IMG/VR virus record: IMGVR_UViG_3300047487_000042
Span: 1 to 25,140 of that record
DNA length: 25,140 nt
DNA from: a virus
Direction: 5' to 3' (one strand)
A program made the position numbers and the translations under genes. How positions within the stretch are numbered: position 1 is the stretch's first letter; every line of letters begins with the position of its first letter. The notes below the pieces were generated by a model, which was not told the DNA's origin, did not search any database, and saw only the letters and a program-made list of their open reading frames with translations. Shown here piece after piece: positions 4,173-18,983 of this stretch.

Positions 4173-4709
4173 TCAGTTCCTCAGCAGCAAAGGTTGAACA
4201 TTGGATTCAATGAACCCACGAGCCCCGTTTTCGGTGGCAGAAATCCCAGACAGTCGCGTAGGAGCGTCCTCCACCCCTCGGGTGGTGTAGGTGCGGTAGA
4301 AGTCGCAGAACCGCTTCTGCAGGAACGGCAACTCGTCAACCTGAGACTGGCAGAACTTTGGCCATCCTCCAAGGGTTTGAATCGCCGCATGAGCGATCGG
4401 ATCACCCAGATCAAGGGTCTGGTATGCCCCGACCTGAGAAATCGCCTTGTACGCCTTATTCCAGGCCAGGAGAGCCCTGTCCGTATGCGTGCCTTGGAGC
4501 ATCCGAACCAGATCCGCGGGCTTTGGAGGGAACTGGCCCTTCTCCGGGTCCATGGCGTGGGAGGTCAAGGCCTTCCGCACCTGCTCCAACTCAAAGTTCT
4601 GGGAAGCCTGCCACCAGACGGTGATGGCGAAGTCCGAGACATCTTGCTTGTAGAAGGCTAGGACATCGGTGATCAGTTCCATGAACTGGGGTTTGTCACT
4701 CGCTTTCAT
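4173..4709 (-). CDS. DUF6475-like phage replication-region protein, 178 aa
   Basis: The protein begins FMELITDVLAFYKQDVSDFA and continues with WWQASQNFELEQVRKALTSH, AMDPEKGQFPPKPADLVRML and a GGWPKFC segment near residue 120. This order matches my recollection of the DUF6475 family, found next to primosome/O-like genes in proteobacterial prophages; the biochemical role is not established. The fold appears all-helical in the first 90 residues. ATG at 4709 follows AAGGAGCGATGA, and the gene overlaps the end of the DUF1376 replication gene by 14 bases. From position it may serve as a helicase-loader or initiator partner, like lambda P beside O, but no sequence motif here proves that. Confidence 0.72.
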   Translation of the reverse strand: MKASDKPQFMELITDVLAFYKQDVSDFAITVWWQASQNFELEQVRKALTSHAMDPEKGQFPPKPADLVRMLQGTHTDRALLAWNKAYKAISQVGAYQTLDLGDPIAHAAIQTLGGWPKFCQSQVDELPFLQKRFCDFYRTYTTRGVEDAPTRLSGISATENGARGFIESNVQPLLLRN

Positions 4710-5448
4710 TCATCGCTCCTTGGTTTTGCAGCCAACGCAGGCCGACTTCCTTGTTCCGACGCTCCAGGGCCTCCTGCTTGTTGAGGGTCGCGCCACCTTC
4801 CCTCGTCAGCCAACTGGCCTTGAATCCACCCCATCCTCGAAGGCAGCACTCCTTCAGAGCCTCCTGCATAGAGATGCCTGCCTTGACGACCTCGGCCTCG
4901 ACTTGAGCCATGGCGGTCTTGGTCAACGGCAACTTCTTGGCTCTTCTGATGGCCAACCAGTCTTCCCAGACTTGGGGTTCAACACCATCGAAGCACTCGA
5001 CGACAGTCGATGTGCGTGTATTTCTAACCTTGGTTTCTGGTTGTTGGTTCTTGGTTATTGGTTCTTGGTTATTGGTTGGTTGCACGTCCGTTGAACGTCC
5101 GTTGAGCGTCTGTTCTACGGATGCATTACGGATGTTCTGCCGACGCTCTGCAGACGCTTTACCGGCGCGTGACGCCTGATCCTTTTTCCCGCGATAGTGC
5201 GCGATCTCCTGCTCACAGCGGGCATGGAAGTACCCATCAGGGGTGTAGGTGAACATATCGTTCAGCACATCCCGGATGACGCTTGGCTCAACGCGGATGC
5301 GCTTGGCAACCCACTCCATGTCAAGAGGGATCGGGCCTTCAAGGTCGTAGTACATATCGATCAGGCGCCGATATGCCAAGTCCTCCTCGTTGCTCAGGTG
5401 AGCGGTGGAGGCCCTGTAGTCACCAATGTGGAACTGGTAGTAGTGCAT
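4696..5448 (-). CDS. DUF1376 replication-initiation-like protein, 251 aa
   Basis: Residues 1-85 are a DUF1376 domain: MHYYQFHIGDYRASTAHLS, then EDLAYRRLIDMYYDLEGPIP and a winged-helix-like remainder. Residues about 95-140 form a polar low-complexity linker (QPTNNQEPITKNQQPE). Residues 155-215 are a small Trp-rich helical domain (VWEDWLAIRRAKKLPLTKTA, then GWGGFKASWL) typical of phage O/DnaT-like replication proteins. Such proteins are thought to bind the phage origin and recruit helicase machinery (family inference). The start is ATG at 5448 with AAGGAC six bases upstream. An in-frame upstream extension to GTG 5562 has no clear Shine-Dalgarno and would cover a structured leader, so it is rejected. 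The linker DNA is a dense array of direct repeats. Confidence 0.82.
   Translation of the reverse strand: MHYYQFHIGDYRASTAHLSNEEDLAYRRLIDMYYDLEGPIPLDMEWVAKRIRVEPSVIRDVLNDMFTYTPDGYFHARCEQEIAHYRGKKDQASRAGKASAERRQNIRNASVEQTLNGRSTDVQPTNNQEPITKNQQPETKVRNTRTSTVVECFDGVEPQVWEDWLAIRRAKKLPLTKTAMAQVEAEVVKAGISMQEALKECCLRGWGGFKASWLTREGGATLNKQEALERRNKEVGLRWLQNQGAMNESE
5029..5160. repeat. Cluster of 7-bp and 11-bp direct repeats inside the replication gene (candidate origin)
   Basis: Seven consecutive heptads of the form NTTGGTT (two with one change) run 5029-5077. Next come 11-bp units ACGTCCGTTGA (5084-5094 and 5095-5105) plus a degenerate third copy to 5116. TACGGATG is then repeated at an 11-base interval (from 5116 and 5127). 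Finally GACGCT is repeated at about an 11-base interval near 5140-5160. The cluster corresponds to the disordered linker of the DUF1376 protein. Short iterons embedded in the initiator gene are the arrangement of the lambda origin in gene O. An AT-rich unwinding element is not obvious, so origin function is inference. Confidence 0.5.
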
Positions 5449-5453
5449 CAGTT

Positions 5454-5544
5454 GTCCTTGGGTGGACAGCCTCAGGGTGAGAATTCCGAGGCGGGCCAAC
5501 CCATTGCGGGTCTTGATCGGGCCTGAAGCCGTCCGCCCAAGGAC
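5454..5544 (-). promoter_or_regulatory. Long RNA hairpin in the leader of the DUF1376 gene, sequestering its Shine-Dalgarno
   Basis: In the leftward transcript, a 5' arm (5544-5522, beginning GTCCTTGGGCGG) can pair over 23 positions with a 3' arm (5476-5454, ending CACCCAAGGAC): 20 Watson-Crick pairs, two G-U and one C-A mismatch by my count. The 45-nt loop (5521-5477) can form at least one more small stem (ACCC/GGGT around GCAAT). The 3' arm ends with AAGGAC, the Shine-Dalgarno of the gene whose ATG is at 5448, so folding would hide it. The 150-base gap between the Cro-like gene and the replication gene holds this element and no convincing gene. Confidence 0.6.
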
Positions 5545-5594
5545 ACTGACTTGCAAGCCCACCTTATGCGCTTCTCACGGCGCTGATGAGCATC

Positions 5595-5798
5595 TTAATC
5601 GCCAAACAAGTCAGGGCGCAAGTCCCTGCGCGTCACAAGCCCTTGCGTGGCATCTTCGATCCTCTTGGCCAGGGCTGCGGAGCACTTGCGCTTCTCGTGG
5701 ATCAAGAGGGACATCCAGGACTGGGTCACGCCCAGGTACTCGGCCATCTCCTTGATCGCTCCGATCGGCTCTTCGTCAAAGTATTGTTTGAGTTTCAT
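5595..5798 (-). CDS. YdaS/Cro-like helix-turn-helix DNA-binding protein, 67 aa
   Basis: This is a small repressor/Cro-type protein. Residues 10-35 read EPIGAIKEMAEYLGVTQSWM then SLLIHEKRK, a helix-turn-helix with the recognition helix around TQSWMSLLI. The C-terminal IEDATQGLVTRRDLRPD is the signature of YdaS_antitoxin/Cro proteins of lambdoid prophages. It is the first gene of the leftward early block and faces the rightward block across a 103-base region with a palindromic operator, so it probably controls both directions. The ATG at 5798 is immediately preceded by GGAAGG, an unusually short Shine-Dalgarno spacing that may limit translation. No CI-like partner gene is in the window. Confidence 0.82.
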   Translation of the reverse strand: MKLKQYFDEEPIGAIKEMAEYLGVTQSWMSLLIHEKRKCSAALAKRIEDATQGLVTRRDLRPDLFGD

Positions 5799-5819
5799 CC
5801 TTCCAGTCTACTTGAACTT

Positions 5820-5825
5820 TTTATA
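5820..5825 (-). promoter_or_regulatory. Candidate -10 element for the leftward early promoter
   Basis: Read leftward the hexamer is TATAAA (5/6 to consensus), about 22 bases upstream of the Cro-like gene's ATG. The -35 region at a 17-base spacing (5848-5843) is AACACC, which is poor, but it lies in one arm of the palindromic operator, so this promoter may be regulator-dependent. The assignment is by eye. Confidence 0.35.
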
Positions 5826-5826
5826 C

Positions 5827-5848
5827 AACACAATGTTGACATGGTGTT
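5827..5848. promoter_or_regulatory. 22-bp near-perfect palindrome, candidate operator of the early switch
   Basis: The arms AACACAATGT and ACATGGTGTT flank a central TG; nine of ten arm positions are complementary. It lies in the only divergent intergenic region of the window, between the Cro-like gene and the rightward early genes, and contains the TTGACA of the candidate rightward promoter. It is a good candidate binding site for the YdaS/Cro-like protein or for an unseen repressor. Confidence 0.6.
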
Positions 5849-5864
5849 TGAGTTGTGATCCACT
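5836..5864 (+). promoter_or_regulatory. Candidate rightward early promoter
   Basis: A perfect -35 TTGACA (5836-5841) is followed after 17 bases by TCCACT (5859-5864), which matches the -10 consensus at only three positions. The downstream gene starts at 5902 with AAAGG seven bases before it. The strong -35 lies in the centre of the operator palindrome, so a bound repressor would block it. The weak -10 makes the assignment tentative. Confidence 0.35.
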
Positions 5865-5901
5865 GCATTCACGCCAAAGAGGCGGTCACTGAAAGGTTGA
5901 A

Positions 5902-6108
5902 ATGAAGCATCTGCCCTACAACACCGGCAAAGTCCTCATCGGATGCCGGTACGAGCCTTCCACGAAGGTCGAGTTCAGCCGTGATGCTGAACGCCTCCAA
6001 ATGGCCCTGATCGGGCCTCCCAAGCGAGAAGTCACTCCGGGCTACTACCTGAGCCTTGCGGCTATTTGCGTCGCTCTGATGGCGGCTTTGATGTGGGTGA
6101 CGAAATGA
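5902..6108 (+). CDS. Small conserved-looking phage protein with C-terminal TM, 68 aa
   Basis: First gene of the rightward early block; ATG follows AAAGGTTGA. The N-terminal part, MKHLPYNTGKVLIGCRYEP, followed by FSRDAERLQMALIG, matches a pattern I recall from many short phage proteins near the replication control region. Their function is unknown. Here a hydrophobic tail (YYLSLAAICVALMAALMWV, about residues 48-66) adds one likely TM segment with an N-in orientation. The stop overlaps the next start (ATGA). The conserved N-terminal motif without any catalytic residue suggests an interaction role, perhaps with host machinery at the membrane (inference). Confidence 0.7.
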   Translation: MKHLPYNTGKVLIGCRYEPSTKVEFSRDAERLQMALIGPPKREVTPGYYLSLAAICVALMAALMWVTK

Positions 6109-6308
6109 AAAACATGAGAGTTCTGATGTCGGGCTCAACCGTTCGGATGATTGCCCAAGAGGCCGATGCTGCTATCGAAGCAGCCCGCCTGTCGTTCGTC
6201 ACCAACCGTCCGCTTACGGGTGATGAGTGGCGCAAGATCATGGAAGTGGTCACCTACGCCAAGGTGGCTTGCGCCAACGCCCTGCGTGAGGAGGAAGAGA
6301 ATGACTGA
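6105..6308 (+). CDS. Hypothetical early phage protein, 67 aa
   Basis: The start ATG at 6105 overlaps the previous stop (ATGA). Two further in-frame Met codons (6114, 6126) are possible starts. The protein is helical: STVRMIAQEADAAIEAARLS, then PLTGDEWRKIMEVVTYAKVA and an acidic end (LREEEEND). No domain is recognised. An upstream in-frame extension to 6066 lies over the preceding gene and is not needed. It is translationally coupled to both neighbours. Confidence 0.65.
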   Translation: MKNMRVLMSGSTVRMIAQEADAAIEAARLSFVTNRPLTGDEWRKIMEVVTYAKVACANALREEEEND

Positions 6309-6459
6309 CGAAGAATACCTAGAGTGGTTGAAAGATCCCAAGGCCCAGGACGAATACCAGGAGTGGTGCCTGAAGGAAGCCCTGCGTAATGCAGGTTTGA
6401 GCGTGGAAGAAGTGTTGAAAGTAACTGAGAAAGTTTTCTCTAAGGAGCAACAGAAATGA
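6301..6459 (+). CDS. Hypothetical acidic early protein, 52 aa
   Basis: ATG at 6301 lies within the end of the previous gene (8-base overlap) and is preceded by GAGGAGGAAGAGA, a strong Shine-Dalgarno that doubles as coding for that gene's Glu-rich tail. The product is MTDEEYLEWLKDPKAQDEYQ, then a helix (EWCLKEALRNAGLSVEEVLK) and a basic end. It is soluble, has no known motif, and overlaps the SSB-like gene by four bases. It may be a small partner of the SSB/exonuclease pair (position only). Confidence 0.65.
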   Translation: MTDEEYLEWLKDPKAQDEYQEWCLKEALRNAGLSVEEVLKVTEKVFSKEQQK

Positions 6460-7118
6460 GTTTTATCGTAGAAGCATCTGGTGGTGGTCGTGAGTTCAAG
6501 ACCGTTCCTTCTGGAACCCATCTGGCCCGTCTGTATCGCATCGTTGACTTGGGAACTCAAACCTCCCAGTTCGACGGTGGTGAGGTGAAGATGCAGCGCA
6601 AGGTGATGTTCGGATGGGAGATCCACGGCGAAGACGATAACGGAGCACCTCTCCTGACGGAAGAAGGAAAACCGATGGCCGTCTTCAAGAACTACACCCT
6701 GTCATGGAACGAAGCCGCAACCTTGCGGAAGGATCTGCAGGCTTGGCGAGGACAGCCCTGGACAGACAAGGAAGCCTCACGGTTTGACCTGAAGAACGTC
6801 CTGGGTCAGTGGTGTATGTTGAACATTCTTCACCGCTCTGGAAACAAGGACGGGAAGATCTTCGCCAACGTCGCAGGCATCTCGCCTGTTCCGGGCTTCC
6901 TGAAGAAGCAGGGTCTTCCTGAGGGTCACAACGAACTGCAGATGTTCCGCCTCGGAGACCCGGACTGGGAACTGTTTGAGACCTTCTCTAAAGGTCTAAA
7001 AGCCAAGATTGAGTCCTCGCCCGAGTACAAGGCACTGGCCAACACCGGTTCTTCCGGCAACGGGAAGAAGAGTCTCGCGTCCATGAGCAATGACTTGGAT
7101 GAGGACATCCCCTTCTAA
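6456..7118 (+). CDS. Single-stranded DNA-binding-like protein with acidic tail, 220 aa
   Basis: The first about 150 residues have the beta-rich, aromatic pattern of an OB-fold phage ssDNA-binding protein: PSGTHLARLYRIVDLGTQ, then MQRKVMFGWEIHGED, ending in a segment LGQWCMLNILH. Residues 195-220 are a Ser/Gly linker with the acidic terminus DLDEDIPF, the classic SSB tail motif that recruits replication and recombination partners. ATG is within AAATGAG, with AAGGAG upstream. The adjacent exonuclease supports a recombination/replication role: coating ssDNA produced by resection. Phage SSBs of this kind are often annotated as hypothetical or DUF669-like. The exact subfamily is uncertain. Confidence 0.75.
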   Translation: MSFIVEASGGGREFKTVPSGTHLARLYRIVDLGTQTSQFDGGEVKMQRKVMFGWEIHGEDDNGAPLLTEEGKPMAVFKNYTLSWNEAATLRKDLQAWRGQPWTDKEASRFDLKNVLGQWCMLNILHRSGNKDGKIFANVAGISPVPGFLKKQGLPEGHNELQMFRLGDPDWELFETFSKGLKAKIESSPEYKALANTGSSGNGKKSLASMSNDLDEDIPF

Positions 7119-13292: not shown

Positions 13293-16200
13293 TTACCGCT
13301 TCGATTTTAAGTAGTCAAGCGGAGATTTCAAAGCGGGTGGCGGAAGATCTTTTGGCCCCTTTGACCTAGCCCGCTCCCGGATGTTGTGCATCATCTCGTA
13401 CAACTTGTCGGTTCCGGCCTTGGTAGAACCGTTGCCCAGGGCAGAAACCACATCCGCCGGGAAGACAAACTCCCCGTCCGCAAGCCACGCCGGGATGTCG
13501 TCGGACTGGCCATCGCCCTCTCCGGCAACGTGTTTCCCGCCCTTAAAGTCCTCCCGACCCTTGTGGGTTGGAAGTCCACCGGCCTTGGCCAGGAGGGGTA
13601 GAGCCATTCCGCCCTCTTTAGCCTGCAGGGGCTGAACATATCCGCCATTGGCGTAGTTCACCGCTTCCGGAAAAGATCCGCCTAGGATGTCATCAATCGA
13701 GTCCTCTTGGCCGTAGGAGTAGTACGGCTGCTCGTTGGCTGCCTGACCCAAACCCCCTTGAGGGGTGCCCATCCGCTCGGACAGGATCTGCATCAGTCGG
13801 GGATCGATGTTCTGCATCATGGCATCTCTTTCAAACTGTTCCTGCGCCTGACGTACCTGGGCAAGAGGATCAACATAGCCTTGGGTGACTCGGGATTCAA
13901 GCATTTGAGGGGCAAGACGCCCGGATTCTTGAGCGCCGCCATAGAAGGCGGGAAGAGCCATCGCCGCAGCGGGGGCCCTGGTTGAAGAAGGCTTTACGGT
14001 TGGAGTCGTGACCTTCGGAGGTGTAACGGGCGCAACCGGTTCAACACTCTTGACGGGATCAACGCCCTTGATTGGATCAAGAGAGGTCACCGGCTTGACC
14101 GGATCAAGAGACTTGATCGGGGTCAGCGGCTTGAGAGGCAGATCATCGCCAATCACCATCTGACGACCAGTCGTCGTATCCGTCACAACCGTTATCGTCT
14201 GACCAGAGTTGGTATCTGTCGTGGTGTTGGTCGTGATGTTCCCGTCGGTTGTCGTCTGGGTTGTAACGTCCGTATTGACATCCGTTGTCATCTCAGTAGT
14301 CACGCCAGTGTTTTCGTTGGTCGTGATCTGAGTGGTTACGCCTGTATTGGTGTCAGTCGTGGTGTTGGTTGTGGTTCCGGTATTGGTGTCGGTCGTTGTC
14401 TGCGTAGTGACGCCAGTATTCGTGTCTGTCTGCGTCTGAGTCGTAACACCCGTGTTCGTATCGGTCTGAGTTTGGGTGGTGATGTTGGAGTCAGTCTGGG
14501 TCTCGGTCGTGACTCCCGTCGTTGTATCGGTAGTCGTCTGTGTAGTGACGCCGGTACTTGTGTCAGTCGCTGTTTGAGTCGTAGTACCGGTAGAGGTATC
14601 AGTCGTGGTCTGGGTGTTGACACCGGTGCTTGTGTCTGTGGTCGTCTCTGTCGTTACCCCGGTATTGGTATCTGTTGTCGTCTGAGTCGTGACCCCGGTG
14701 TTGGTGTCGGTCTGGGTTTGAGTCGTCGTCCCAGTATTGGTATCGGTCTGAGTCTGAGTGGTGACACCAGTGTTGGTGTTCGTCTGAGTCTCAGTTGTCA
14801 CACCAGTGTTGGTGTCGGTTGCCGTAGAAGTCGTAACCCCAGTGTTGTTGTTGGTGGTGGTCTGGGTAGTGACTCCGGTGTTGGTATCCGTGGTAGATGA
14901 AGTCGTCGTGTTGTTGTTTGCGTCAGTCGTGGTTTCAGTCGTGGCGCCAGTGTTGTTGTTGGTCTCTGTAGAAATCGTGGTGTTAGTGGCGCCGTCGGTC
15001 TGGCTATTTGTGGTCGTGTTAGTGCTCGGATCAGTCGTTGTCGAATTAGATGTTCCTGTGTTGGCATTAGTGACTGTCTGGGTGATAGCGCCCGTATCTG
15101 CGCTTGTATCAGTTGAGTTAGTGACACCCGTACTCGTATCCGTCACGCTTTCAGTAGCAACACCAGTGTTCTGATTCGTTGTGACCTGTGTTTTTGTATC
15201 AGAGCCCGGATCGCTCGTCACGGTTGTTGTCGTACCGACATTGTTGTCATTCGTCGTGGTCGTCGAAGCGCCGGTATTGTTGTTCGTCTGAACAACAGTT
15301 TCTGTTCCGGAATTTGGGTTTGAAGAACTCGTGGCCGTGGTGTTCGTGGCAGCGTTGGTGTCGGTTGTGCTTGTTGCTCCGGTATTGGAGTTAGTGGCCG
15401 TCACGGTCGTGCCGCCGGTGTTGTTCACCGCTGTATTGGTGACCAAACCCGTAGCGGCATCTATTTGGGAACCAGTTGTTGCGCCACCGCTAACCAAGCC
15501 TAGGCTTGCTGCCGTGATCGGGGCGCCCGACGCGCTCGTGCCGAGCACGGTGTCTGCGGCCATGCCGGATGTGTCGATTACGCCACCGCCCAATACCTCG
15601 CGGCTGTAATCCGAGATGAGTTGATTAACATCCATCTGTCCAGTAGTAGACAGATGCGAATCTTCGTTTGCCAAAGAAGAGGTAACTAGATCGCCAAGGG
15701 TAAGGGTTTTTCCCGAAGGATCAGTGCCGATTGCAAGACTAGCGTCTACCACCGAGTCTGGGCGATATGTTCCATCTATTGAAACAAGACCCTGATCTGC
15801 AAAAGAGTTTGCTAGTGCAGTATTGACATCAACCGATGTCTGGATTGTGCTAGCAGTCTTGCCGCCGACGCCTGCGCCTACGATGGACTTTGTAAGAGCA
15901 GAGTTCAGATCCTCTCCAGTAGCCAGAGAAATCACAAGTTCCTCAAAACCTTCTACTGGAGCCTCGGCGACGCCCGCGCCCGCCTTCCTGCCAACTGCGC
16001 TCTCAATGGCGCTACCGAAGCGTTTTGCAATCGCAGAATCTACGATGCCTGCAGTAACAGCAGTAATGGCGCCCGCGATGTAACCATCACGAGCAGCAAG
16101 ACGATCTGCCTCTTCGGGAGACTTTCCCTGATTGATGTACTCTTGATACTTGTCGCGTGAAGTTGCGCCGATAGCCTCAACTGTGTTTAGGCCAACATCA

Positions 16201-18983
16201 GTAGCAACGCCTGCGGCAAGACCTAACAATTTTGTGGCTCGCGCTGCTGCCGCTACCGGCAAAACTTCTTGACCCACCTCACGCAACACCATGTTAAGCG
16301 AGAGAGGGTTGTCAATGACCGCCTTAACGAACTCAAATCCTTTGTTGAAGAATCCTTCCGTGTTTTGAACTCGACTCAACACGTTCTGCGTAGCCTGAGT
16401 CACCTGCGGCAATTCCATGTTCTTGCCTGCGGTCTCTAGGGCTGTAAACGCTCTATCAATGAACGTGTTGCGACCACCCAATCCTGTGACTATGCTAGAT
16501 CCTTGCTCACCTAGCAGTTGGAATAGATTAGAGAAGCCTTGCCGAACAACATTGCCGCCGGTCTGCAAGTGGTCTTTAACCCACTGCGGATCGGCCACGA
16601 TGGGCTTGAATTGATCGCTAAGTTGCGTGCCCTGCATTGATGTAGCAACTGCGTCAAAGTCAGTTCCCACATCATCGCTACTGGTTGCCCCAATCGTGGT
16701 GCGTAGCGGCACGGTAGAGAGAGATGTTGCCGCATCCACTCCCGCTCCCGCAGTCAGTCCGCGTCCTGCGCCTGCCGTTTGATTTGTAGATGTCGCCGCA
16801 TTGACCCGAGCAAGATCTGAAGCCTCTGCCAAAGCAGGGTTCTCCTGCCGAGTGTCTGTGCTGTATGACTTGCCCTGCCAAGTGAAGGTCTTGCCCGCGC
16901 CGTAGAGATTTCGAGCGGAGGCATAAGCATCTTCAAACGTCGCAGCGTTGTTGATGCCGTTTGCGATGGAGGCATTCAACTCTTCCTGAGTCGGAGCCCT
17001 TGGGAGTTCGATGGAAGTGATGTCGCCGGTATCAAAGTTAGCAGAACCAACAGTTCCCAAGTTCTCGCCGGTGACCCTTGTTGTCGCGGTTGGGGCGGTT
17101 CCGGGAAGTCGACTGATACCACCAACAGTTCCTCCGGACACTGCCTGGGCGGCGGCGGCGGCTTCTTCATCAGTTGCCCCTGTACGCTTGGCATTGATGA
17201 AGGCAGCAGTTGCGGCATCCGAAAGCCCCTTTGGAACAGAAGCCTGCTCAACCGCAGAAGACAACTGGTTTGCTGCCTCCATGATGCCCATCAGCGCAGC
17301 AGGATTGGAGCCCGCTCTCTGAATGGCGTCCACCAGACCGATGGCTTTTGCGGCAACTGTGGCGTTGGGGTTGTTAACAAGCCCTGCTGCAGCGTTAGCG
17401 ATAGCCGAGATATTAGGCTTTCCGGAACTCAACTCTTGGGCAAGTCGAAGTCCTGCTGAAACCTGTCCTCCAGTGATCCCGGTTCCCTCAAGGGCAGAGG
17501 TGATCGCGCTTCCTGCGCCGGAGGTGACCGCTCCAGTCAGGCCCGCACGGGCAAGGTCGCTCAGATCTCCGCCCGAAGCGATAACGCCAGGAACAGCATT
17601 CAGGCCACTCTGGACAGCGCCGCGCACGGCGTCCGCAGCCACCTGACTGCCGGTGAGATTGAGCGTCTCAGCAGCAGCAGCATTGGCAAGGCTTGCTCCA
17701 CCCGCTCCGAGAGCGCCAGTGGCAGCACCTGTCAATGCGCCTCTCAGTACATCACCACCGGTCAAACCCGCCTGAGCAGCCCCAAGACCGCCACGAACGA
17801 TTGCATTTGCAGCGATGTTGGAAGCAAGGGTCGCACTGCCGCCTCCGATAGTTGCAGCAAGGCTTTGAGCCACAGGGCCCGCAAAGGCCATGGCAGCCAT
17901 CGAAACCAGAGGAGCAACAGCGCCCTTCCAAGACTCCGAATAATCAAAGCCTTGTTCGCCAAGTTTGTTTCCTTGAGCGTCAAAGTCGATTGCAACACCG
18001 CTGTCGCTGCCCGTAAAGTAACGAACCCGAGCGCCAGTTATGTTGCCGCTGTCGTCGTAGGTGTAGGTCGTCTCAAGCGGAAGGTTGCGATCGTTTGTCG
18101 CAGTCTTGGTGGCTTGGAATCCGCCGCCCTGACGCTCTCCTGCGAAGTCATACGAAATTGGCAGAGACCGAAGTGTGTAGTCGCCAACCTGAATTCCGGC
18201 GTCGTAGAAGGTTGAGCCTTCTCCTTGACCGAATGCTTGGTTGTAACTTGCTCGCAGTTGATCGGCAATGCTTGGATCGGCTCCAAGCAAACTCGTGACA
18301 AGCGACTGAGGAGAAGAAGATGCGGCTTGTTGAAGAGCAGATGCGCTCGCCGCAGGAGCGGGAGCAGGTGCAGGTTCGGGGGCGGGAGCGGGAGCAGGTT
18401 CAGGTGCGGGTGCAGGAGCAGGAGCAGGAGCAGGAGCGCCACCAGAGATGATTCTCTGAGCCTCTACTGCATCAACCGGGTAGCCCTGTTCGTCAATGTA
18501 ATTTCCGCCAAGAGTTTGATACAAGCCGGGGGCAACATAAACAGGAGCCGCATCCACGATGGGCTTGGACTCGGGCAGAACTTCTGACGGAGGAGTGCTA
18601 AAGGCCTCGTCGAGAGCGGTTTTGATGACCTCTGATTGATTCTGTATCGGAAGTTCAGCCGTGGTAGTTACAGGCGACTCCTCAACTTGAGTATCAAAAT
18701 TTGTCTGGGGAAGTCCGCCAGTCGGTTGATCAACAGTTGGAGCGGGCGTTCTAAGCCCAGAAGCAAGTCCTTGAAGGGCAGACCAGTCAGAGTCTGTCTG
18801 TTGTCCCGCGGCCTGACGAATATCGGCGTCAGAATAGCCTTGGTCGATCAACTGGTTGTAGTAAGCAGCCTTCTCCAACGGAGAGCGAGAACCGATGTCA
18901 GACGGCAAAACCAGGGGAGATTGATACTCCTCTTCATACTCGCCAAAACGATTCGTCGAGGAGTCGTTGAACGGAAGTGCCAT
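13293..18983 (-). CDS. Giant internal virion / ejection protein, 1896 aa
   Basis: The longest gene of the window, probably packaged in the head and delivered with the DNA. Segments by approximate residue: 1-180 acidic, polar N-terminus; 181-210 Pro-Ala repeat; 355-440 Gly/Ala-rich hydrophobic region (GATGALGAGGASLANAAA); 895-1000 amphipathic helices (LPVAAAARATKLLGLAAG, GYIAGAITAVTAGIVDSA) with membrane-active character; 1180-1605 Thr/Asn-rich 12-residue repeats; 1610-1665 Pro-Val-Lys linker (KSLDPVKPVTSLDPIKG); 1822-1865 the hallmark GDGQSDDIPAWLADGEF then VFPADVVSALGNGS. That last motif marks large internal proteins of environmental podoviruses. ATG follows GGGAACTTGAC. No lysozyme or transglycosylase motif was spotted. 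Repeat instability is a possible source of length variants. Confidence 0.78.
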   Translation of the reverse strand: MALPFNDSSTNRFGEYEEEYQSPLVLPSDIGSRSPLEKAAYYNQLIDQGYSDADIRQAAGQQTDSDWSALQGLASGLRTPAPTVDQPTGGLPQTNFDTQVEESPVTTTAELPIQNQSEVIKTALDEAFSTPPSEVLPESKPIVDAAPVYVAPGLYQTLGGNYIDEQGYPVDAVEAQRIISGGAPAPAPAPAPAPEPAPAPAPEPAPAPAPAASASALQQAASSSPQSLVTSLLGADPSIADQLRASYNQAFGQGEGSTFYDAGIQVGDYTLRSLPISYDFAGERQGGGFQATKTATNDRNLPLETTYTYDDSGNITGARVRYFTGSDSGVAIDFDAQGNKLGEQGFDYSESWKGAVAPLVSMAAMAFAGPVAQSLAATIGGGSATLASNIAANAIVRGGLGAAQAGLTGGDVLRGALTGAATGALGAGGASLANAAAAETLNLTGSQVAADAVRGAVQSGLNAVPGVIASGGDLSDLARAGLTGAVTSGAGSAITSALEGTGITGGQVSAGLRLAQELSSGKPNISAIANAAAGLVNNPNATVAAKAIGLVDAIQRAGSNPAALMGIMEAANQLSSAVEQASVPKGLSDAATAAFINAKRTGATDEEAAAAAQAVSGGTVGGISRLPGTAPTATTRVTGENLGTVGSANFDTGDITSIELPRAPTQEELNASIANGINNAATFEDAYASARNLYGAGKTFTWQGKSYSTDTRQENPALAEASDLARVNAATSTNQTAGAGRGLTAGAGVDAATSLSTVPLRTTIGATSSDDVGTDFDAVATSMQGTQLSDQFKPIVADPQWVKDHLQTGGNVVRQGFSNLFQLLGEQGSSIVTGLGGRNTFIDRAFTALETAGKNMELPQVTQATQNVLSRVQNTEGFFNKGFEFVKAVIDNPLSLNMVLREVGQEVLPVAAAARATKLLGLAAGVATDVGLNTVEAIGATSRDKYQEYINQGKSPEEADRLAARDGYIAGAITAVTAGIVDSAIAKRFGSAIESAVGRKAGAGVAEAPVEGFEELVISLATGEDLNSALTKSIVGAGVGGKTASTIQTSVDVNTALANSFADQGLVSIDGTYRPDSVVDASLAIGTDPSGKTLTLGDLVTSSLANEDSHLSTTGQMDVNQLISDYSREVLGGGVIDTSGMAADTVLGTSASGAPITAASLGLVSGGATTGSQIDAATGLVTNTAVNNTGGTTVTATNSNTGATSTTDTNAATNTTATSSSNPNSGTETVVQTNNNTGASTTTTNDNNVGTTTTVTSDPGSDTKTQVTTNQNTGVATESVTDTSTGVTNSTDTSADTGAITQTVTNANTGTSNSTTTDPSTNTTTNSQTDGATNTTISTETNNNTGATTETTTDANNNTTTSSTTDTNTGVTTQTTTNNNTGVTTSTATDTNTGVTTETQTNTNTGVTTQTQTDTNTGTTTQTQTDTNTGVTTQTTTDTNTGVTTETTTDTSTGVNTQTTTDTSTGTTTQTATDTSTGVTTQTTTDTTTGVTTETQTDSNITTQTQTDTNTGVTTQTQTDTNTGVTTQTTTDTNTGTTTNTTTDTNTGVTTQITTNENTGVTTEMTTDVNTDVTTQTTTDGNITTNTTTDTNSGQTITVVTDTTTGRQMVIGDDLPLKPLTPIKSLDPVKPVTSLDPIKGVDPVKSVEPVAPVTPPKVTTPTVKPSSTRAPAAAMALPAFYGGAQESGRLAPQMLESRVTQGYVDPLAQVRQAQEQFERDAMMQNIDPRLMQILSERMGTPQGGLGQAANEQPYYSYGQEDSIDDILGGSFPEAVNYANGGYVQPLQAKEGGMALPLLAKAGGLPTHKGREDFKGGKHVAGEGDGQSDDIPAWLADGEFVFPADVVSALGNGSTKAGTDKLYEMMHNIRERARSKGPKDLPPPALKSPLDYLKSKR
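14000..14140 (-). repeat. Pro-Val/Ile-Lys-Asp linker repeat in the giant protein
   Basis: The encoded protein reads as variations of K-S/P-L/V-D-P-V/I-K, for example SLDPVKPVTSLDPIKG and VDPVKSVEPVAPV. It is a six- to seven-residue Pro-spaced motif, likely an extended stiff linker between the Thr-rich repeat domain and the C-terminal module. Boundaries are approximate. Confidence 0.6.
14170..15440 (-). repeat. About 35 tandem 36-bp units encoding a 12-residue Thr/Asn repeat
   Basis: The core unit encoded is T-D-T-N-T-G-V-T-T-Q-T-T with variants (E for Q, S for N, A or M in places). A clear central run of about 20 units is flanked by more diverged copies on both sides (SNTGATSTT, NNNTGAST). 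Codons differ between units at nearly every third position. One unit (near 14480) lacks two residues (TDSNITTQT), and one near 14240 reads TDGNITTNT. Unit number is an estimate from total length divided by 36. Confidence 0.85.
18355..18443 (-). repeat. Pro-Ala repeat in the giant protein
   Basis: The encoded stretch is APAPAPAPAPAPEPAP followed by APAPEPAPAPAP, with two EP interruptions, at about residues 181-210. It is a typical rigid, extended linker. On the DNA it is a tandem GGAGCAGGAGCA-type run with synonymous changes. Confidence 0.85.

Follow-up and report, generated by a model that had tools for sequence, protein, structure and literature searches.

The window analyzed here, a stretch of 25,140 nt from the IMG/VR viral record IMGVR_UViG_3300047487_000042, carries on its minus strand an RNA element (5583-5446) located directly before a replication gene. 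Judging from the sequences compared, an RNA of about 130-135 nt is conserved before the replication gene in a large group of uncultivated phages. Since it appears able to adopt two incompatible folds, and one of these conceals the ribosome-binding site, it probably serves as a switch for the onset of the replication machinery. We regard it, with fairly good confidence, as a riboswitch-like cis-acting switch, in which an antisequestor competes with a sequestor and controls translation of the first gene of the replication operon.

The starting point was an earlier note on this DNA, which described a long hairpin with arms at 5544-5522 and 5476-5454 of the minus strand and proposed that it hides the Shine-Dalgarno (SD) sequence of the replication gene. 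The arms pair as described. The stem is present as claimed and is longer than claimed: outer pairs join 5549-5545 with 5452-5448, and the whole hairpin, H3, occupies 5549-5448 on the minus strand. It forms about 28 bp of almost perfect duplex covering the SD, and the stem takes in the A of the start codon ATG (5448-5446). The SD, AAGGA (5455-5459), does lie within the 3' arm, and all homologs have an SD at this position. Within the 45-nt loop, a further small stem is formed by ACCCGCAATGGGT (5511-5499), and the pair analysis of homologs also contains this apical hairpin, H4 (ACCC-GCAAU-GGGT). Folding of the minus strand from 5594 to 5440 by RNAfold gave −75.6 kcal/mol (z −5.5), and none of 200 shuffled sequences reached so low an energy. 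When the homologs are folded to minimum energy, the SD is paired in 25 out of 25 of them, in agreement with the proposed sequestration.

The two arms of H3 differ in their features. The 5' arm (5522-5549) contains the anti-SD UCCUU and is also able to fold back on itself (GUCC/GGAC). The 3' arm (5448-5476), the sequestor, has a conserved bulge or mismatch at 5463 that splits the upper part of H3 from the lower one. Upper H3 is conserved in sequence, and lower H3, which holds the SD, covaries and is conserved mainly in its pairing. In its position, the bulge appears to divide H3 in the way that a core domain is usually divided from an expression platform. The hairpin is real; however, it is only one part of the larger element 5583-5446, and the 5' domain extending to 5583, the pseudoknot PK1, the mutually exclusive covarying helices and the promoter had been overlooked.

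A search of IMG/VR with the DUF1376 protein revealed 20 loci. Those with a full-length match contain, directly before the start codon, a stretch nearly identical to that of the window, while their DUF1376 proteins are only 51-63% identical, with the exception of one near-identical relative. Scans with conserved pieces as patterns yielded 27 groups with different cores, plus further ones. The element is 87-92% identical to that of the window in the relatives L003, L026, L034, L036 and L060, whereas the level of identity of the same five is 39-58% in the 750 nt downstream and 33-36% in the 200 nt upstream; overall, the element is about 90% identical where its flanks are mostly at 33-45%. The covariance model found one copy per contig (128-154 bits) in 19 of the 20 related IMG/VR phage records, always immediately ahead of a start codon. 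Weaker matches on the opposite strand are the palindrome read backwards. No conserved coding sequence occupies the element, as the earlier note had assumed: in-frame stops and frame-shifting indels are spread across it in most relatives, and a coding extension from GTG 5562 was rejected because of stops and frameshifts in relatives. Integrase was found in none of the 11 element-bearing contigs, which is consistent with virulent phages or fragments.

Compensatory substitutions were looked for in the relatives, using 25 distinct sequences and a structure composed of P1, PK1, H2, H3 and H5. In this set, 96.4% of cells are paired, and both sides have changed in 18 of the 45 pairs (116 cells), values that none of 500 shuffles reached; when the partners are slid by one column, pairing is only 42-47%. 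The 5' hairpin P1, GCGC-C-GUGAGAA-GCGC (5568-5583; this and the following helices are on the minus strand), is paired in 100% of cells, with a change from G-C to A-U on both sides in four sequences. Its loop provides the 5' strand of PK1, GUGAGAA (5572-5578), which forms 7 bp with UUCUCAC (5483-5477) in the loop of the big hairpin; the two strands covary, and four pair-preserving variants occur (GUGAGAA/UUCUCAC, GUGGAAA/UUUCCAC, GUGAUAA/UUAUCAC and GUAAGAA/UUCUUAC). H2 is formed by GGUGGGCU (5556-5563) and the covarying GGCCCGCC (5497-5490), with both sides changed in six of eight pairs. Its variants are GGUGGGC/GCCCGCC in the clade of the window, GUGUCUG/CAGACAC in L012, GGGGCAUUUG/CAGAUGCCCC in L044 and GGUCGGU/ACCGACC in L081. 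H5 pairs CCGA (5517-5520) with UCGG (5489-5486), also covarying; three of its four pairs have changed on both sides, and 98% are paired.

An alternative to H2, designated Halt, pairs GGGCUUG (5554-5560) with CAGGCCC (5525-5519). The latter strand overlaps the apex of H3 and H5, and Halt is incompatible with both. Nevertheless, both of its sides have changed in 30 cells, which was achieved by none of 500 shuffles, and when all ungapped 7-bp helices were scanned without bias, the top ranks went to lower H3, to Halt (columns 32-38 with 68-74) and to PK1. Covariation, together with the absence of a conserved reading frame, supports the earlier proposal of a conserved cis-acting control element. 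An RNase III processing site would explain less. The lambda N leader is an early phage mRNA with a long stem over the SD and an RNase III site, and cleavage of the nearly perfect duplex of about 28 bp could similarly free the SD here. The two leaders share the long stem covering the SD, but they differ in position and gene, and to our knowledge no alternative covarying folds are known in the lambda N leader. A processing site leaves PK1, H2, Halt and the conserved core unexplained, and the conserved bulge interrupts the stem; we consider it improbable.

It is the leftward RNA that is functional, since G-U pairs far outnumber A-C pairs (103 vs. 15 in total; 50 vs. 0 in upper H3). A ratio of 103:15 would not be expected from a DNA structure or an opposite transcript. 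It counts against a DNA element, either a replication origin or a cruciform, for which the location directly before the initiator gene and the iteron-like repeats inside that gene could be cited. Conservation is not alike for the two strands and favors an RNA made from one of them; moreover, a conserved promoter precedes the element, the SD and start codon form its 3' end, and the likely origin repeats come only after the start codon, about 330-420 bp downstream of it. A DNA element is thus highly unlikely.

The promoter became visible only by comparing relatives, while a scan of the window for the sigma70 consensus found none. The comparison of upstream regions indicated a sigma70-like −35 element TTGCGC (5616-5621) and a −10 element TAAGAT (5592-5597) on the minus strand, the latter overlapping the stop codon of a gene for a YdaS-like DNA-binding protein (5595-5798, minus strand; PF15943, 6e-12), an upstream neighbor that is not present in all relatives. 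Aligned upstreams have the pattern TTGNNN, 17-18 nt, TANNNT, 6-8 nt and P1, even when the upstream genes are different. A promoter with at least 7 of 12 consensus positions lies 5-9 nt before P1 in 25 of 26 distinct upstreams, compared with mostly 1-6 of the 26 at other offsets. This conserved pattern at a fixed distance means that the RNA very likely starts at P1, with a predicted 5' end at about 5585-5583. The element would thus be a leader, downstream of its promoter and before the start codon. No sigma70-like antisense promoter was found on the plus strand of 4400-6500 by a scan that also overlooked the minus-strand promoter.

Two exclusive folds emerge from the folding of the homologs. 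For full-length homologs, RNAalifold gives P1, H3, H5 and H4 with the SD hidden, whereas for homologs truncated ahead of the 3' arm the outcome is PK1, Halt, the 5'-arm hairpin and H4. In the minimum-energy folds of single sequences, PK1 is present in 25 of 25 prefixes, with H2 or Halt, and H3 in 25 of 25 complete RNAs. The 5' strand of H2 is located 1-6 nt before the base of the approximately 28-bp H3 stem and its partner strand is beyond the top of that stem; from this position, H2 and the lower, SD-holding part of H3 should not coexist. Exclusive conserved folds, one of them hiding the SD, are the hallmark of a translational riboswitch and are present here, the exclusivity of H2 and H3 being partly deduced from geometry. 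Opening lower H3 alone would leave a linker long enough for H2. In principle, PK1 and H3 could form together. Because H2 and Halt compete, there is more than one possible ON fold. The prefix fold is not unusually stable compared with shuffles (z −0.37 in the window, mean −1.65 over homologs), and the case for an alternative fold therefore rests on covariation. The sequestor fold of the full-length RNA is far more stable (−69 vs. −40 kcal/mol for the prefix), so that without a trigger or a kinetic lag, the leader may simply be off.

The switch may work as follows. Transcription would begin at P1, and the first 108 nt or so would form the 5' domain, comprising P1 with PK1 (an H-type or kissing pseudoknot), either H2 or Halt, the hairpin that the 5' arm forms with itself, and H4. 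This domain would occupy the 5' arm of the long hairpin and leave the following SD free (ON). Once made, the 3' arm could invade and zip up H3, burying the SD and the start-codon region (OFF). The balance between the folds would be set either by a bound factor or by the speed of folding relative to the arrival of ribosomes, and the replication gene would be translated or not depending on the result. The sequence conservation, the covariation of helices belonging to both folds, the hidden SD of the predicted fold, the promoter pattern and the strand of the RNA are what the comparison shows; from them we infer in which direction the switch works, that the folds exclude each other sterically and that there is a trigger.

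The nature of the trigger is a question within the switch reading, and our estimates for a timer and for a protein are shares of that question, not alternatives to a switch. Possibly, P1/PK1/H2 is an aptamer domain that recognizes a metabolite or signal of the cell, and the element is a new riboswitch class gating translation of the replication initiator in many phages; we put this forward tentatively. Equally tentative is a protein-bound operator, in which a phage or host RNA-binding protein on P1/PK1/H2 controls translation of the operon; it shares the anatomy of the switch, and it would fit a core that is conserved, has its own promoter and lies in a regulatory region of a phage. However, no candidate regulator was found, and simple autoregulation is unlikely, given that the next gene encodes a divergent DUF1376 protein, an HNH nuclease or unrelated small ORFs.

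Somewhat more doubtful is a ligand-free kinetic timer, a sub-case of the switch differing in its trigger, in which nascent RNA is briefly translatable before refolding into H3, so that each mRNA yields a short burst of replication protein. The big energy gap between the folds and the conserved nascent fold speak for it, and a precedent is the maturation gene of MS2, which is translated only from nascent strands, the final structure hiding its SD (PMC6071253). Both are phage leaders with the SD hidden in the final fold and nascent RNA that may be translatable; however, MS2 is an RNA phage with an unrelated structure, whereas the element described here belongs to a DNA phage and has its own promoter and a conserved pseudoknotted core. 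A timer should have no need of PK1 or of near-invariant unpaired and core nucleotides, which resemble a recognition site, and the conservation exceeds what timing alone demands.

The gene controlled in the window encodes a DUF1376 or phage O-like replication protein of 250 aa (4696-5448, minus strand, starting at ATG 5448-5446), the product of which matches PF07120 (2e-25), phrog_6451 (primosomal protein) and phrog_678 (O-like). In the homologs, ATG, TTG or GTG follows about 7-10 nt after the SD. The gene after the element mostly encodes DUF1376 proteins of several divergent subfamilies. Cis control, as the earlier note proposed, holds, but its assignment of DUF1376 as the regulated gene is only part of the picture, as other genes occupy the slot between the element and the rest of the operon in some relatives: L045, L055 and L059 have an HNH nuclease there, L012, L048, L053 and L054 have small ORFs, and L044, L078 and L079 have a member of another family (start MKRPSFQFYPSDWLRD). 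Since the downstream gene varies, the RNA apparently regulates the slot rather than one protein, and simple autoregulation by the product of the next gene is unlikely.

Some additional features of these genomes can be noted. In G002, G008, G019 and G020, a DUF1376 gene is located just upstream of the element, and G008 and G019 have a second one just downstream. The O-like DUF1376 gene of the window contains tandem repeats at 5030-5077 (7-bp TTGGTTA, 6.9 copies) and 5079-5114 (11-bp GTTGAACGTCC, 3.3 copies), which resemble origin iterons as in lambda O. An ORF of 1896 aa at 13293-18983 of the window encodes a long series of imperfect repeats rich in Thr and Asn (NTGVTTQTTTDT-like).

As supposed earlier, the element is not a known RNA: the window has no match in Rfam 15 at the gathering threshold, and relaxed thresholds gave only chance-level matches for the window and two divergent homologs. 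Neither the 50,697 phage records nor the 72,556 plasmid records searched contained a convincing match. One pattern scan of GTDB species genomes revealed chance matches only, and the element is absent from 399 genomes of the order of Sutterella, which need not be the order of the phage host. Several candidates were rejected: a match in a Sinorhizobium RAC02 plasmid lies inside an unrelated oxidoreductase-like ORF, BLASTn matches to Acinetobacter and Rhizobium phages are short (E 0.5-5), pattern matches in Sutterella and Thermoplasmata genomes are without the long hairpin (covariance model E 0.07-0.12), and L077 has a pattern match only. The element is also missing from the stretch examined in zth2-2, two Manatee Spring phages, CV-1-33 and AB3P2, which are known phages whose DUF1376 proteins are among the nearest. 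In the literature searched, mostly open-access, no description of this RNA was found. Pistol and hatchet ribozymes also occur in phages, and a compact pseudoknotted RNA might suggest a self-cleaving ribozyme or another catalytic RNA in the leader; with no Rfam ribozyme match and an SD and start codon always coupled to the element, this is extremely improbable. The RNA family looks new on the basis of these searches, while the kind of device, a translational switch, is already known.

Like translational riboswitches, the element is a leader right after a promoter, with a sequence-conserved pseudoknotted domain ahead of a covarying stem that sequesters the SD, and with two exclusive folds; it differs from them in having no Rfam riboswitch match or known ligand and in belonging to a phage replication operon. 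In the repZ leader of ColIb-P9 (IncI-alpha), the SD of the replication gene is located in a stem, and a pseudoknot of a loop with a distant strand activates it. The element has the same combination of a replication-gene SD within a stem and a loop-to-distant-strand pseudoknot, but ColIb-P9 is a plasmid with an antisense RNA, whereas the promoter scan of the plus strand, which also overlooked the minus-strand promoter, showed no antisense promoter here.

Thus, a single-copy RNA family absent from Rfam 15 is situated at what is probably a control point of DNA replication in many metagenomic phages. Its covarying alternative helices allow specific compensatory-mutation tests in a reporter. If the RNA is a kinetic timer, it would be a DNA-phage counterpart of the MS2 leader; if it senses something, these phages would time the replication of their genomes by means of RNA.
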